Below the pieces are notes generated by a model that was not told where the DNA came from, did not search any database, and saw only the letters and a list, made by a program, of their open reading frames with translations. Shown in pieces: positions 24,664-30,486 of a stretch of 64,000 nucleotides of DNA (positions are counted from its first letter, which is position 1; every line of letters begins with the position of its first letter). Origin of the DNA: Clostridia bacterium (lineage in GTDB: Bacteria > Bacillota > Peptococcia > DRI-13 > SM3-B62). A program made the translations under genes and the position numbers. The stretch is from NCBI GenBank assembly GCA_018432615.1, contig JAHDSQ010000018.1, positions 1-64,000 of the forward strand, given 5' to 3'.

Positions 24664-25980
24664 TTGGAGGACTTTTTAAGAGCCCATCTTATCTGCTGGG
24701 AAAATACTGGGGAAATCATTGACGAAATAAAAAAATACTGTGTGATTACGGGGAAGAGTCCGACTTTTAAAGAGGCTTGCCTGTGGGCTAAAGAAAGCGG
24801 AGGGGCAGCACCGGATTTATTTGTGGTCAATGGCGGTGAATATTTTTCTAGCGTCTTAGGGGCAGAAGATGGCACCAGAAAAGCGCTGCTGAGAGGGTTG
24901 AGAGAAATAAAAAAGCAGCGGCAGCAGAGTCGGATTATTTTGTTGTTACCCACAGACAAAGTTCAAGATGACGCCTTGATCGTAGGACTTCTTAAAACCC
25001 GAGTTTATGATTTCTGGTTTTATGATGATTTTGACGAAAAGGATATCAGAGAGTTTTTATTAACAGAAAGAACTTTAGAGAATGCCGAAGAGTACCTAGT
25101 AAGACGACAGGAGCAGACCGACCCAAGGGGGCAGAGAAAGAGAAGCTTTTTTGGCTTCCACAGCAGATTCAAACAAACCTATAAGCCATACTATGTAAAA
25201 TCAAATATTATTGCTTTTTGGTCCGAGGATGATTTGCTTCTTAATCAGGGTATAGCTCTTATGACTGCCATCAGACTGGCCCAGGCGGGCTTTAAGGTTG
25301 CACTGCTGGAAGCGGTGACTCCGACGCCACAGTTGGCTTCATGCTTGTCGATAGCACATTTTCCTCGTAACATTAGACATGCACTGGCTTTATATTCGCA
25401 AAAAAACAATAAATTACTTAAAAATTACTTATTCAATATCGATGATATTCATGAATACGGTCTGCAACACGGCGGAGATTACAGTATTGCGGACCTGCCT
25501 GCCAATCTGTATCTGTTGCCGGACGGAGTTAGAGAAGACAGTTTGCCTTTAAAAGAGCTGAAGAGGAATTGGAAACCCTTTATTGATGAAATCATGAGGG
25601 CCACTATATTTGAAAAAGACTATAATTTTATTGTTCTTATTTGCTCCGGCAACACATATTTCGGAAATGTGATTTTAAATGAGGTAGCTTACCTTAAATT
25701 TATCACATTAAACATGCTTCCCGGCAGCGTGGTAAAGGCTTTAGAAAAAAGAAGGGCGGCAAGCCAGGAAAATGTTCATCTTATCGGTGGGCAAAGGATG
25801 AAATATGTTGCGGCTGAACTTCGTGATTTGGGAGAAAAACCATTTCTATACGTACCTGCTTCCCTCGAGGAGGATTTTTTAAATCTCGTTTATTTGCAGA
25901 ACATACGTAAGATAGGGACTGAAACACGGGAGTTCATTGAAATGATAGTAGAAAGAACAGGGGTGAAATTGTTTGAATAG
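24664..25980 (+). CDS. CpaE/MinD-like protein lacking the P-loop
   Basis: The family is not certain. Residues about 50-135 look like a response-receiver-type fold (PDLFVVNGGEYF, RIILLLPTDKVQDDALIVGLL, VYDFWFYDDFDE), the arrangement seen at the N-terminus of CpaE/TadZ proteins. Residues about 180-430 follow the outline of a MinD/ParA ATPase (KSNIIAFWSEDDLLLNQGIAL, AQAGFKVALLEAVTPTPQLAS, NFIVLICSGN). However, the Walker A lysine-glycine sequence is replaced, so ATP binding is doubtful. The TTG start at 24664 lies 8 bases after GGGGG. No pilus (Tad) genes are nearby. It could be a localisation scaffold. It follows uppP by 40 bases. Confidence 0.55.
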   Translation: MEDFLRAHLICWENTGEIIDEIKKYCVITGKSPTFKEACLWAKESGGAAPDLFVVNGGEYFSSVLGAEDGTRKALLRGLREIKKQRQQSRIILLLPTDKVQDDALIVGLLKTRVYDFWFYDDFDEKDIREFLLTERTLENAEEYLVRRQEQTDPRGQRKRSFFGFHSRFKQTYKPYYVKSNIIAFWSEDDLLLNQGIALMTAIRLAQAGFKVALLEAVTPTPQLASCLSIAHFPRNIRHALALYSQKNNKLLKNYLFNIDDIHEYGLQHGGDYSIADLPANLYLLPDGVREDSLPLKELKRNWKPFIDEIMRATIFEKDYNFIVLICSGNTYFGNVILNEVAYLKFITLNMLPGSVVKALEKRRAASQENVHLIGGQRMKYVAAELRDLGEKPFLYVPASLEEDFLNLVYLQNIRKIGTETREFIEMIVERTGVKLFE

Positions 25981-26057: not shown

Positions 26058-26792
26058 ATGTTAGCAGATAGGGAAAGACAGGAATATTTGATTTTGCTTA
26101 TTGTAAGTCAGAGCGAGTCTCCTGTCGGTTCCGGCTATCTCAGCCGTGAATTAAAGAATTACGGATGGGACTTGAGCGAGGCAACTGCCGGAAGGTTATT
26201 AGCCCAGTATGATACCCAAGGTTATACCACTAAAGTGGGTTACCAGGGTAGAGTATTATCGGCTCAAGGTTCGGCTAAGCTGAAAGAACTTGAAGAGAAG
26301 AAACAACGTACGGACCAGGGTCTTGAGTTTTTCCGGGTACTGGAGACGAAGACGGCTGAGGAGCTGATTGACGTACTGGTTGCACGTCGCGCTATTGAAC
26401 GGGAAATCGCCCGCTTGGCAGCGGAGAAGGCGACAGAAGACGAAATCAAAGAGCTTCGCTATATCCAACGCTTGCAGCAGCAACGGGTTGAACACCAAAG
26501 AGGCGGAGCGGCGGAGCAGGATGTTGCTTTCCACCGTGTTTTAGCCAGGGCTGCCCGCAACAAGGTTCTGGAAGGTGCTATGGAGCTGATTAGGCAGGAC
26601 GGACAGCTGGCCCCGGTATTGGAGTACATCAGGAAAGAGGTGCACAGCGTAGTATCTTTGGATCACGCCAATATTATCGAGGCTGTGGCCGACCATAACT
26701 CTGACGCGGCAGAAAAAGCCATGACCGATCATATAGAGAACCTAATCAGGGATGTTAAGAAGTATTGGAATAAGGTGGAGAACCAGGGGTAG
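26058..26792 (+). CDS. FCD-domain transcriptional regulator with NrpR-like winged helix
   Basis: The C-terminal part (about 95-235) is an FCD ligand-binding domain as in FadR/GntR regulators (ELIDVLVARRAIEREIARLAAE, QDVAFHRVLARAARNKVLEGA, DHANIIEAVADHN). The Asp and His residues that bind a metal in the family are kept. The N-terminal part is not the usual GntR helix. It resembles the winged helix of NrpR / RNase R type (PVGSGYLSRELKNYG, ATAGRLLAQYDTQGYTTKVGYQGR). The combination is uncommon. FCD domains bind organic acids with metal. The gene lies directly upstream of the cobalamin cluster and is its likely regulator. Confidence 0.8.
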   Translation: MLADRERQEYLILLIVSQSESPVGSGYLSRELKNYGWDLSEATAGRLLAQYDTQGYTTKVGYQGRVLSAQGSAKLKELEEKKQRTDQGLEFFRVLETKTAEELIDVLVARRAIEREIARLAAEKATEDEIKELRYIQRLQQQRVEHQRGGAAEQDVAFHRVLARAARNKVLEGAMELIRQDGQLAPVLEYIRKEVHSVVSLDHANIIEAVADHNSDAAEKAMTDHIENLIRDVKKYWNKVENQG

Positions 26793-26826
26793 TAAGGTAC
26801 TTCGGGCAGAGCTATATTTTTTTACC

Positions 26827-26851
26827 TACAATATACTCATCAATGATGAGT
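26827..26851 (+). promoter_or_regulatory. Possible -10 and operator before the cobalamin-enzyme genes
   Basis: TACAAT (26827-26832) is followed at once by the perfect inverted repeat ACTCATC-AAT-GATGAGT (26835-26851). This lies 23 bases before the small-protein start, where a bound repressor would block transcription. It is a candidate site for the FCD regulator. No convincing -35 is seen. Confidence 0.4.
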
Positions 26852-26873
26852 TGCAAGATGGGAGGGTATGGAG

Positions 26874-27113
26874 ATGGGAGAATGGTTCGAGAGAGTTCTT
26901 GATGCCGTGGATATCGAAACGTTTTTCGCCTGCAAAGACGAAAAAGAGGGCAGGGTATTGGCAATGCAGCTAATGAAGGGGTTCGGACTGAAAGACGCGG
27001 ATATTGTTTTTATTGAACATGAAGGACCGGGTGCAAGGGTAAGGGCCCGAGGATATATTCACAGGGCCGGTGACCGCTATGGCTGGCTGGAGGGAGGGAC
27101 AGATGATGAGTAA
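26874..27113 (+). CDS. Small protein of unknown function upstream of the cobalamin enzyme
   Basis: The 79-residue protein (MGEWFERVLDAVDIETFF...) is not recognised. The N-terminal half is amphipathic helical. The second half has alternating strands (ADIVFIEHEGPG, ARVRARGYIH) and ends in an acidic GGTDDE tail. The ATG at 26874 is 7 bases after GGAGGG; the ATG at 26868 is too close. Its stop overlaps the next gene by 8 bases, so equal expression with the cobalamin protein is likely. The arrangement of a small gene before a large cobalamin enzyme recalls the small OraS subunit of D-ornithine aminomutase, but I see no sequence match, and a subunit role is only a guess. Confidence 0.7.
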   Translation: MGEWFERVLDAVDIETFFACKDEKEGRVLAMQLMKGFGLKDADIVFIEHEGPGARVRARGYIHRAGDRYGWLEGGTDDE

Positions 27114-28920
27114 AAAGGCTAAAGTCTTATTGGCACCGTTGGATCCGGTGCATGATATAGGCTTGAAAATTATAAAACGATCCCTGGATGAAGCGGGCTA
27201 CCAAACAATTCTTCTACCCCCCGACTATTCTTCGGAGGAAATTCTCAAGGTAGCAATGGAGGAGAAGGTCCGTGCCATCTTAGTCAGCCGTACTTTAGGT
27301 TATGGTGTTGCCGAGCTTTTAGCACGGTTCGTGGACATGGCGGAAGCGGTAGGGATTCGCGAGAATGTAAAGCTGGCTATAGGGGGTATGAGTATTCGCC
27401 CCGAATTAGCGCAAGAGTTGGGCTACGATGCCGGCTTTGGCCCGGGGACGAAGCCGGAGGAGGTTATCGCTTTTCTGGAAAACAGGAAATATGAGCCGGA
27501 GATAAGAGGAGCGGGGAAGATAAAAAGGGATATTACCAAAGGGTTTGATTATGCCTATAGTAATAAAAATATTGAAAAGATGTTGGATCATATCGTGACC
27601 TCGATTGTCGGTTGGGGACAGAACAAAACTACCCCAGGGATAAAGAGGGCCGAGGTAAGAAAAGGATTATTGGAACTTCCTCAGGGTAAGGACAGGACAC
27701 ACCTGTTGCAGGAATACTTGCGGTGGTGTGATGCCAAGGTCAAGGAATTCTATCTTGAAGGAACGGTATTGCCAAAAACGCGTCTGTTGAGCAAGGAAGA
27801 ACTGAGGAAATTAGAGAGATATGTTGAGGAGACCAATAAGCGTATGACGCTGCAGGTAATTCAACACAGCAGGGAAAAACCGGTAGTATTCATCCAGTAT
27901 GGCACAGGTTGTCCCTTTATGGATATTGCGCACATCAAAGCCGGAGAAGCATGGGGTGCCGACGGGGTAGTGCATTTTGATCCGTCCTGGGGGGCTCGCA
28001 CCGAAGGTTTTCTGGAGGGATACATAACCCATGAAGAGGACGGTTCCATTATTACCCCTGAGAACTTAATGGGTATCAAGAGTTCTTTAAGTCCTCATAC
28101 GATATGGCAGGTAAGGGCTCATAGGGGTTTAAACACGCCGGAAACAGTACTCTTGGCAGGGGCGATGGGAGCGGATCTGACTAAAATCAATATTGCCTAT
28201 GGTTCCCTTGGCGGGGGAACAGACCCGGCCAGGCTGACTATGGATGCTATGCAAGCTATTCGTTACGCGGTTGAGTACGGACTTCCCTTTGATGTGGTGA
28301 CAAATGAGGAACTGTGTGGGGTTCCTGCCTATAAGGCTTTTGCAGGTATGCTGATTACAGCGCATCTCGGCTTGCGCTTGGGTGGCAGACCTATACTGCA
28401 GCCGTTGTTCTGTTATTCTCCGGAGGTTATGGTATCAGGCGATATGGATGATAATTACGTTGATTTCAATGCGGCGAAAATCATGGCTTTGCGCAGTATA
28501 ATCAGGGCTCCGATTTGGCCGGGAGCTCCCATCGGGTTTTTGACACAAACGGAGGATAGGGTGCAGTCATCACTGTCCACAGCATTGCACGGGGCCCTTG
28601 CCGCCAGTTTAGGAGTTGAAGCCATCTCTATCGCTTCCTCCGATGAGGCCTATTCAGGTGGGCCGATAGCAGTGCCGTCCCGTATCGATACCTTAAAAGC
28701 CCTGCAAGAAGCCTTCCGTTTCTTCGGGCTGTCAAGTATTGCCCCCACCGAAAATGCGCAAGTTTGGGCCGAACGCTTGGAAAAAGGGATAGAGGAAGTG
28801 CTGGAAACGGTAGCGGAGAGAGGCGATTTTGTTGCTGCTCTTTATGAGGGATTACTTGGCAGCGTGGCTGAAGGCGCTTATCCGGGCAGGAGCGGAAGGA
28901 AAACGGTGATGATGTTGTAA
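27106..28920 (+). CDS. Fused glutamate-mutase-like protein (MutS-type B12 domain + MutE-type barrel)
   Basis: The 604-residue protein begins with a B12-binding Rossmann domain (about 1-135) that lines up with glutamate mutase S: DPVHDIG for the cobalt-binding loop, ILVSRTLGYG, then GPGTKPEEV. The loop spacing is Asp13-x2-His16-x2-Gly19, one residue longer than the canonical D-x-H-x2-G. The remainder (about 170-590) resembles the E subunit barrel (IWQVRAHRGLNTPETVLLAG against the arginine-bearing QARHGTPD segment of MutE). Glutamate mutase rearranges glutamate to 3-methylaspartate with adenosylcobalamin. Both subunits in one chain, and clear divergence in the barrel, suggest another substrate. 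The ATG at 27106 is 7 bases after GGGAGGG. A PLP enzyme gene follows after 58 bases. Confidence 0.75.
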   Translation: MSKKAKVLLAPLDPVHDIGLKIIKRSLDEAGYQTILLPPDYSSEEILKVAMEEKVRAILVSRTLGYGVAELLARFVDMAEAVGIRENVKLAIGGMSIRPELAQELGYDAGFGPGTKPEEVIAFLENRKYEPEIRGAGKIKRDITKGFDYAYSNKNIEKMLDHIVTSIVGWGQNKTTPGIKRAEVRKGLLELPQGKDRTHLLQEYLRWCDAKVKEFYLEGTVLPKTRLLSKEELRKLERYVEETNKRMTLQVIQHSREKPVVFIQYGTGCPFMDIAHIKAGEAWGADGVVHFDPSWGARTEGFLEGYITHEEDGSIITPENLMGIKSSLSPHTIWQVRAHRGLNTPETVLLAGAMGADLTKINIAYGSLGGGTDPARLTMDAMQAIRYAVEYGLPFDVVTNEELCGVPAYKAFAGMLITAHLGLRLGGRPILQPLFCYSPEVMVSGDMDDNYVDFNAAKIMALRSIIRAPIWPGAPIGFLTQTEDRVQSSLSTALHGALAASLGVEAISIASSDEAYSGGPIAVPSRIDTLKALQEAFRFFGLSSIAPTENAQVWAERLEKGIEEVLETVAERGDFVAALYEGLLGSVAEGAYPGRSGRKTVMML

Positions 28921-28978
28921 TTGGGGTGATTTTCACCCTTGCAAATATATCAAATAAAAAAAAAGGAGTTGTTTAAAA

Positions 28979-30445
28979 ATGGCAAAATTTAAGTTCAAGT
29001 ACCAAATGTACAAACATCTTAGGGACAATATCCCTAACATTTATGCCGAGGCAAGCAAGGCAGCGGAGAAAATTGGCGTTCCTGCGGATATCAAAGGGAA
29101 ATTCGGATTAACAGGGGCTATTTCCGGTTGCCCGGCGCCTCTTAGGAACGATATTTTGGAAGCCGGGGAGAAGGAAGCCAAAAAGGTCGTGCCTTTAGCA
29201 GTGTATGTCGATCAAATGAGGGATATTGTCAAAGAGGTTTACGGAGATGACTGGGATGTAGCACCGGTCAATACCTGCGAGGCAGGTTTGTGGGTTTCAT
29301 TTGATGCCCTCTTTACACCCCCCGCTATGGGTCGCGGTGATAACTATCGTTCTCGTTATATTGCCTTGTATGAGAAGCATATCCATCACCAGGCAGGATA
29401 TGGGCGGCCCTTTCCGGCACGCTACAAAGACATCTTGGCAGATCGCGGTTCAACAGCCGGTGAATTAGGTTTTTACGGGAAGAGACAGAACAACCTTGAT
29501 ACGATTTTTGCCCCCCTGGCCGGAGCAAAGTATGATGTTCACGGGATTAAGTATCATCCGGTACCCCTGTTAACAGAGGTAGATCCCCAAGCCTCTCAAA
29601 AGAGCATTGCCGAATTGGCTGAACGCCATGCCCAAATGCTTACCGGCTTCACTAGTTTAGGTTACGAGACTCCGGGGTATGGCTATGGCATCAAGGATAA
29701 AGAAGGCACGCCTGTTTTGCAGAAGGTCGTTGCGGAACTTGCGCAGAAATATAATGTGCCCTATGTGATAGACAATGCTTGGGGACTGCCGTTTGTTGGA
29801 ACCAACCCTGTTAAAAACGGCTGTGATGTGATCATTTACAGCATGGATAAGGCAACCGGTTCACCTTTATGCGGTCTTATTATCGGTAAAGAGGAAGTTA
29901 TGGTACCGATTAGGCGTGCTCTTGGTATGCACGGTGATCGCTGGGGTACTACTGCTTCTTACGGGAAGGCCGCTTACGTCACGAATGACCCCGGCAAAGA
30001 AGCCTTAGTCGGCGCTTTGGCTGCTCTCAAAGCCCTGAAAGACAAGCCTGAAATGTACACCAAGCCGGTTGATGATCTCTACGATATAGTTGTGGATGAA
30101 ATCAAGGGTCTTGATCCGCAAATCAGAGATGGTTTTATTGTCAATAAATCCTATAACTCCACGGCGGTAGAAATCAACTACGAGAAAACATGGAAGAACG
30201 GAAAGATGGGTGTACCGATTTTCTCGATTGAGGATATGTATTCCGGCACGAACATCTTCCAGTCAGGGATGTCGGCGATGGGAGTCATTCCTACCGTGGC
30301 ATACGACGGCAACATCTATATCTCCACAGGTCTTGCCACTACAGACGAAAACGGGATGTTGATTCCCGATAGGACCAGGGTTGCCGTGAAGGCTTTGGTA
30401 GAGTTGATTAATATTACCAGCCGGTATGCAGGAATTTTAGAGTAA
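28979..30445 (+). CDS. Fold-type I PLP-dependent enzyme of unknown substrate
   Basis: I do not recognise a named family. The 488-residue protein has the marks of a fold-type I PLP enzyme: an aspartate for the pyridine nitrogen (Asp265 in YVIDNAWGLPF) and a probable PLP lysine (Lys291 in IIYSMDKATGSPLCGLIIG). The latter resembles the SGDK-LGGPQAG segment of SelA-type and cysteine-desulfurase-type enzymes. Lyase, transaminase and racemase are all possible. AAAAGGAG precedes the ATG. It is the last gene of the cobalamin-enzyme transcript and ends at a strong terminator. I infer that it prepares the mutase substrate or works on its product. Confidence 0.75.
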   Translation: MAKFKFKYQMYKHLRDNIPNIYAEASKAAEKIGVPADIKGKFGLTGAISGCPAPLRNDILEAGEKEAKKVVPLAVYVDQMRDIVKEVYGDDWDVAPVNTCEAGLWVSFDALFTPPAMGRGDNYRSRYIALYEKHIHHQAGYGRPFPARYKDILADRGSTAGELGFYGKRQNNLDTIFAPLAGAKYDVHGIKYHPVPLLTEVDPQASQKSIAELAERHAQMLTGFTSLGYETPGYGYGIKDKEGTPVLQKVVAELAQKYNVPYVIDNAWGLPFVGTNPVKNGCDVIIYSMDKATGSPLCGLIIGKEEVMVPIRRALGMHGDRWGTTASYGKAAYVTNDPGKEALVGALAALKALKDKPEMYTKPVDDLYDIVVDEIKGLDPQIRDGFIVNKSYNSTAVEINYEKTWKNGKMGVPIFSIEDMYSGTNIFQSGMSAMGVIPTVAYDGNIYISTGLATTDENGMLIPDRTRVAVKALVELINITSRYAGILE

Positions 30446-30450
30446 GGTAA

Positions 30451-30486
30451 AAAACAGGGAGGGCGGCAAAGCTCTCCCTGTTTTTA
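30451..30486 (+). terminator. Intrinsic terminator after the PLP-enzyme gene
   Basis: An 11-bp stem, AAAACAGGGAG (30451-30461) with CTCCCTGTTTT (30474-30484), is followed by more T residues. Confidence 0.9.

Follow-up and report, generated by a model that had tools for sequence, protein, structure and literature searches.

Which adenosylcobalamin (AdoCbl)-dependent reaction is served by a locus in which a B12-binding domain is fused to the front of a barrel, and from which of the known mutases does such a fusion descend? The question is raised by a gene group on a Clostridia bacterium contig, within the window analyzed here (a stretch of 64,000 nucleotides, taken as a whole). A sequence-only reading had described this group as a compact unit comprising an FCD regulator, a small protein, a MutS-MutE-like fusion and a fold-type I PLP enzyme. 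Reading of the window sequence recovered all four ORFs (4/4), and the palindrome, the terminator and an 8-base overlap (the small-protein gene ends at 27113 and the mutase gene starts at 27106) lie where they had been placed (Table 1). The fold-type I PLP enzyme, the small partner protein and the B12-barrel fusion were borne out, as was the proposal of an uncharacterized AdoCbl-dependent pathway with an FCD regulator. Among the window genes, Pfam recognized the FCD domain and RNase-R-type winged helix of the regulator and the B12 domain of the mutase, and returned no significant match for the small protein or the mutase barrel.

Table 1. Features of the mutase locus, numbered from the first letter of the window
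Feature	Position	Strand	Basis
FCD-domain transcriptional regulator with RNase-R-type winged helix (HTH_12)	26058..26792	+	Pfam
Possible -10 hexamer TACAAT, directly 5' of the operator	26827..26832	+	Read from sequence; weak
17-bp operator palindrome ACTCATCAATGATGAGT, core CTCATCANNGATGAG	26835..26851	.	Genome-wide pattern search
79-aa small protein, presumed mutase subunit	26874..27113	+	Profile alignment, adjacency
604-aa predicted AdoCbl mutase: B12 domain, OraS/KamD-N-like helix and KamD-type barrel	27106..28920	+	Pfam, hhalign, AF2/Foldseek
B12-binding Rossmann domain, residues 1-125, motifs DPVHDIG, GGM and GFGPGT	27106..27480	+	PF02310, KamE profile
Helical segment KTSPGVxRAxLR, residues 154-190	27565..27675	+	Resembles OraS HTSPSIERSVLLR and KamD NTTTSVERTVARL
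Barrel, about residues 225-600	27778..28905	+	AF2, Foldseek, invariant columns
488-aa fold-type I PLP enzyme, SelA/SepCysS/C-S-lyase superfamily	28979..30445	+	AF2, Foldseek
Terminator-like hairpin AAAAACAGGGAG ... CTCCCTGTTTTT plus T-run	about 30450..30485	+	Read from sequence

Some boundaries of the locus need qualification. The small protein may start at 26874 (79 aa, with better spacing from the ribosome-binding site) or at 26868 (81 aa). The possible -10 hexamer is considered weak because a promoter scan did not return it, and the hairpin was missed by a terminator scan because its loop of 12 exceeds the scanner limit of 8. Directly upstream of the regulator lies a 438-aa ORF (window positions 24664-25980) with no Pfam or NCBIfam match; it apparently falls outside the module, since it is absent at other mutase loci.

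A conserved neighborhood had been proposed as a check on the locus, and a survey of 40 mutase loci found one: the small-protein and mutase genes adjoin each other in 39, the exception being a genome (G122) with a small-protein copy on another contig, between a regulator gene and a KamB gene. Full-length mutases with 52-96% identity were detected in 12 of the 46 genomes of the class and, across the phylum, in 39 of 398, distributed over 21 families. DUF6917 and the PLP enzyme are each present in 40 of the 398, and all 39 mutase genomes possess both (Fisher 2e-53 for co-occurrence across the 398 genomes, uncorrected for ancestry). The locus is thus more than a chance arrangement, given the adjacency of the pair, the full-length identity of the mutases, their presence in 39 of 398 genomes and the PLP protein in all 39. 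The module is present in genomes as small as 1.5-1.9 Mb, and some genomes have two mutase copies, those of G001 falling in different parts of the tree. One genome (G028) carries DUF6917 and another (G094) the PLP enzyme (56% identity), both without the mutase, as possible remnants or parts of alternative pathways. A pattern scan of genome contigs returned a single near-identical contig, viral contigs gave no match, and plasmids matched only with pieces of the B12 domain. One sequence filed as a plasmid, the 2.1-Mb NZ_CP084075.1 of Fusobacterium vincentii (L200), is of chromosome-like size.

Profile and structure comparisons place the mutase near the lysine and ornithine aminomutases (LAM and OAM). 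In hhalign, the barrel matched KamD with probability 84 over 384 columns and MutE with probability 0.9, and the B12 domain reached probability 99 against KamE and 97 against OraE. When the AF2 model of the mutase (pLDDT 85) was compared with the PDB by Foldseek, the KamD barrel of lysine 5,6-aminomutase ranked best (E 1.3e-14), followed by ornithine 4,5-aminomutase (3e-11) and later by glutamate mutase (2e-9). These results do not support the MutS-MutE-like assignment, and a glutamate-mutase ancestry was rejected on the profile comparison. Within the family, an alignment of 32 members has a mean column identity of 73%; PF02310 matched the B12 domain in all 32, the base-off DxHxxG motif is invariant as DPVHDIG, and the barrel keeps R298, R337, H339, R340 and Y365 without exception. 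Weak Pfam matches to known barrels were distributed among Lys-AminoMut_A (four members), OAM_alpha (three) and Met_asp_mut_E (one, E 1e-3), and the mutase stays below the curated cut-offs of PF09043, PF16552, NF040743 and NF052385. The home genome encodes two MutE-family proteins of its own, one canonical and one diverged (G000:C15:72711-74030 and G000:C23:11371-12660).

The order of the domains is what sets this protein apart. The hhalign alignment with KamD begins at the pre-barrel segment KTSPGVxRAxLR, which corresponds to a helix of OraS (HTSPSIERSVLLR) and of KamD (TTSVERTVARL). The small-protein family, in turn, matched the N-terminal dimerization domain of KamE (probability 87, a remote match) and OraE only at probability 8, and Pfam OAM_dimer (PF16554) recognized 23 of 34 members, with a best E of 4e-4 that lies under the curated cut-off. 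Both the KamD and the KamE-N matches are remote, with 15-22% identity and probabilities under 90. A KamD-like barrel, a KamE-like B12 domain and a small protein resembling the KamE N-domain would together make a LAM/OAM enzyme with its domains re-ordered. The most economical reading of these alignments is that KamE was split, its dimerization domain becoming a gene of its own and its B12 domain joining the front of the barrel protein. The small protein is accordingly presumed to be a mutase subunit, the stand-alone equivalent of the KamE/OraE dimerization domain, and the mutase itself is probably a LAM/OAM descendant whose B12 domain has moved before the barrel. D-lysine 5,6-aminomutase (KamD/KamE with KamB) shares with it AdoCbl, a barrel with an N-terminal helix, the type of B12 domain, KamB and, putatively, the dimerization domain; it differs in that the B12 domain is here fused before the barrel and the dimerization domain is a separate 79-aa protein. 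D-ornithine 4,5-aminomutase (OraS/OraE) shares the superfamily, the OraS-like TSPxxxR motif and the combination of a small partner with a large barrel protein. However, OraE runs in the order barrel, dimerization domain, B12 domain, whereas the order here is B12 domain, helix, barrel, with the dimerization domain apart.

A second departure concerns the PLP site. LAM holds PLP through Lys144 of the B12 domain and through Arg184, Ser189, Tyr236, Ser238, Tyr263, Arg268 and Asn299 of the barrel (PMC3958899). These barrel residues are invariant in 12 KamD sequences, and the lysine is found in 12 of 12 KamE sequences. In all 32 mutase members, the position of the PLP lysine (His+11; Lys144 in LAM, Lys629 in OAM) is occupied by Leu, Met or Ile. 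By remote alignment, seven of the eight contacts have been lost in the family and only Tyr263 is kept, as Y365; Ser238 is replaced by the invariant R340, Tyr236 by A338 and Arg268 by G/A370, Ser189 and Asn299 align to gaps, and the equivalent of Arg184 is likewise missing or replaced. The same remote alignment puts the invariant Arg337 and Arg340 at the former PLP site, and the invariant Arg298, Arg337, His339 and Arg340 suggest carboxylate binding. The mutase is therefore read as likely PLP-independent, differing in this from both LAM and OAM. This stops short of proof because the alignment is remote and because K360, K410 and K458 are invariant in the barrel, where they could anchor PLP in another way.

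The separate 488-aa PLP enzyme was modeled by AF2 with a pLDDT of 88, and Foldseek ranked SepCysS/SelA best (2e-13 at 12% identity). A DgaE-family profile matched at 3e-7, far below its cut-off. SelA, SepCysS and DgaE-like enzymes thus resemble it in fold and around the PLP lysine, which lies in SMDKATG, but identity is about 12% and no curated family was reached. Assignment of a specific activity was rejected both from PDB and family searches, in which the match is confined to the region of the PLP lysine, and from the fold search, which returns many fold-type I families at about 12% identity. The protein is probably a lyase or another C-beta/C-gamma enzyme, and its step in the pathway might be an elimination, a cleavage or a transamination.

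The regulator connects the locus with genes elsewhere. Its FCD domain (PF07729, E=1.4e-21) confirms the earlier assignment and carries the D-x3-H metal-site motif, with D155, H159, H203 and H225 invariant. At its N-terminus, Pfam found no GntR winged helix; an HTH_12 (RNase R type) winged helix stands in its place (E 2.1e-8). The operator core CTCATCANNGATGAG has exactly two sites in the entire 3.16-Mb home genome, one 5' of the small protein-mutase-PLP enzyme genes and the other 5' of an unlinked operon on contig C11 encoding DUF6917, a flavoprotein and a Rid protein. Sites were found in all 30 genomes searched (home, nine relatives and twenty further genomes), the two-operon arrangement recurs in most of the nine relatives, and a reversed-pattern control gave 0 matches. 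Regulator orthologs are present at 32 of the 40 mutase loci, and the operator, with at most one mismatch, accompanies 30 of these 32 and one of the 8 loci without a regulator (ancestry uncorrected), a pattern that favors binding of the site by the regulator. The FCD regulator is accordingly presumed to recognize the palindrome, and by this shared site the two operons are predicted to form one regulon split between contigs. The compact unit described earlier is therefore not upheld: the locus is half of a regulon whose second operon is unlinked.

Additional operator sites extend the regulon in some genomes. Seven genomes have one before unlinked permease copies, and G272 has one before a pyruvate/2-oxoisovalerate-type ferredoxin oxidoreductase with a Rid gene behind it. 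In two genomes (L226:4444-5358 in G374; L228 in G216), the operator lies before a DapA-family aldolase accompanied by Opp/Dpp-type ABC transporter genes, a possible clue to substrate uptake. In G333 and G240 it precedes a NIF3-like gene followed by genes for an amidohydrolase and a membrane protein, and a NIF3-like gene also lies behind the operator in G354 and G293.

The lack of a reactivase, claimed by the sequence-only reading, holds within the window, but the same genome encodes a KamB homolog on contig C25 that scores over the curated cut-off and rules out such an absence; its gene carries no operator. KamB matches were obtained in 13 of 13 module genomes tested, 11 of them over the cut-off, and at 29 of 40 loci KamB (NF052386, over cut-off) lies inside the mutase cluster. 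About 4 kb from the home KamB gene, ORFs resembling a lysine 2,3-aminomutase-like radical-SAM protein and an acetyltransferase (L117:14641-16650) were assigned by eye to the ablA/ablB type. No MutL/GlmL ATPase or methylaspartase was seen in the 40 neighborhoods, and we agree with the earlier argument against the methylaspartate route. Although it encodes KamB, the home genome has neither KamD nor OraE, and the mutase clusters share no recurrent Ord/Kdd-, OrtAB- or Kce-like genes; standard lysine or ornithine fermentation was therefore rejected.

The genes recurrent at the 40 loci encode the PLP enzyme, the FCD regulator, KamB, DUF6917, Rid, a GidA-like flavoprotein and a permease. The HARSAVG segment of the Rid proteins still has its arginine, a residue that separates imine-hydrolyzing Rid subfamilies from others (PMC4433059). 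A catalytic-arginine Rid beside a flavoprotein gene recalls Rid1-3/RidA with FAD amine dehydrogenases (e.g., DauA with Rid); however, the pair is here tied to a B12 mutase and DUF6917 by operator and co-occurrence, and the nearest solved relatives of the FAD enzyme are the tRNA-modifying MnmG/GidA proteins, not amine oxidases. For DUF6917, neither a solved relative nor a paper was found. In one genome (G287), DUF6917 and Rid are fused in a single 302-aa ORF (L067:12684-13592), which suggests joint action. Most permease copies matched no family, with one match to CitMHS. A flavoprotein paralog (about 58-63% identical; L063:10425-12707, L165:7618-9895) is encoded apart from the module, in the home genome as well, and is paired with a sulfide/dihydroorotate-dehydrogenase-like electron-transfer protein.

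Considering these partners together, the locus is, in our judgment, probably the mutase half of a conserved, co-regulated catabolic regulon that would take in an amino-acid-like compound and degrade it, by way of a radical rearrangement, to a 2-oxo acid, using a mutase in which arginines have replaced the PLP site. The reading draws on homology, domain order, the PLP ligands missing from the alignment, co-occurrence and the shared operator; from these we infer subunit contact, PLP independence, regulator-operator binding, the order of steps and the catabolic direction. The 79-aa and 604-aa proteins would together form an AdoCbl-dependent mutase, with the invariant arginines holding an amino-acid-like or dicarboxylic substrate in the barrel. 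Docking of the B12 domain and homolysis of the Co-C bond would generate a 5'-deoxyadenosyl radical that abstracts a hydrogen and permits a 1,2-shift, and KamB would restore inactivated mutase. The PLP and FAD enzymes might then yield an imine or enamine that Rid hydrolyzes to the 2-oxo acid, which a 2-oxoacid:ferredoxin oxidoreductase could oxidize. The FCD regulator would repress the module operons through CTCATCANNGATGAG until its ligand, probably a carboxylate, arrives.

Different chemistries for the same mutase have to be weighed against this reading. It could be a PLP- and AdoCbl-dependent 1,2-aminomutase that acts on a diamino acid and has its PLP lysine relocated into the barrel, serving a variant of ornithine- or lysine-type fermentation. 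Its closest relatives are all PLP-dependent aminomutases, KamB is present, the PLP-stacking Tyr263 persists as Y365, and K360, K410 and K458 are invariant barrel lysines; yet the equivalents of Lys144/Lys629, Arg184, Ser189, Ser238, Arg268 and Asn299 are missing or replaced and the Ord/Kdd-, OrtAB- and Kce-like partners do not recur, and we regard this as unlikely. Glutamate mutase (MutS/MutE/MutL) holds its substrate carboxylates with arginines. It shares with the present enzyme the broad AdoCbl mutase fold, an arginine-rich active site and probably the lack of PLP, and a MutE-like carbon-skeleton rearrangement of a dicarboxylic amino acid, as in the sequence-only reading, may apply as chemistry, though not as ancestry. 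The invariant R298, R337 and R340 recall those arginines, and the Foldseek match at E 2e-9 and the single Met_asp_mut_E hit among 32 members (E 1e-3) point the same way. A mutase of glutamate-mutase type is nevertheless very improbable here, with a barrel lacking significant profile similarity to MutE (probability 0.9), KamD and OAM structures ranking far higher, KamB and a KamE-type small protein as partners instead of MutL, and a separate true MutE in the genome.

The direction of the pathway may also be questioned. A biosynthetic or metabolite-repair module, for example one that produces or disposes of an unusual amino acid, would suit the occurrence in 1.5-1.9 Mb genomes, the nature of Rid proteins as repair enzymes and the fact that no end-product gene is common to all. 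It appears quite unlikely, however, when many genomes have the permease inside the cluster or behind the same operator and when the FCD (catabolite-responsive) regulator, the Opp-type transporter and the 2-oxoacid:ferredoxin oxidoreductase fit uptake and breakdown. The catabolic reading is preferred here, as permease, FCD regulator, flavoprotein/Rid and 2-oxoacid:ferredoxin oxidoreductase together suggest that an amine-bearing acid is taken up and broken down oxidatively through an imine to a 2-oxo acid.

No description of the module was found in the literature searched, which covered few subscription journals. The module is real, conserved and undescribed in these sources, and its mutase is an enzyme of the LAM/OAM kind with possibly a new reaction. 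The list of AdoCbl radical reactions is short, with about a dozen known to date, and every addition to it has defined a pathway. Judged from sequence, the mutase may represent a new AdoCbl enzyme class, a claim we hold at slightly less than even confidence: a LAM/OAM scaffold without PLP, carrying out a PLP-free radical rearrangement of a carboxylated amine and supplying a hitherto undescribed route of amino-acid degradation (mutase, PLP enzyme, DUF6917, flavoprotein, Rid, permease and KamB) in about a tenth of Bacillota. The whole regulon can be read from sequence, including mutase, small subunit, reactivase, PLP enzyme, flavoprotein, imine hydrolase, DUF6917, transporter, regulator and operator, and DUF6917 thereby gains a process. 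The regulator-operator pair would offer the quickest way to the inducing substrate, and the mutase would provide a natural test of what becomes of a PLP/B12 aminomutase after the loss of its PLP site.
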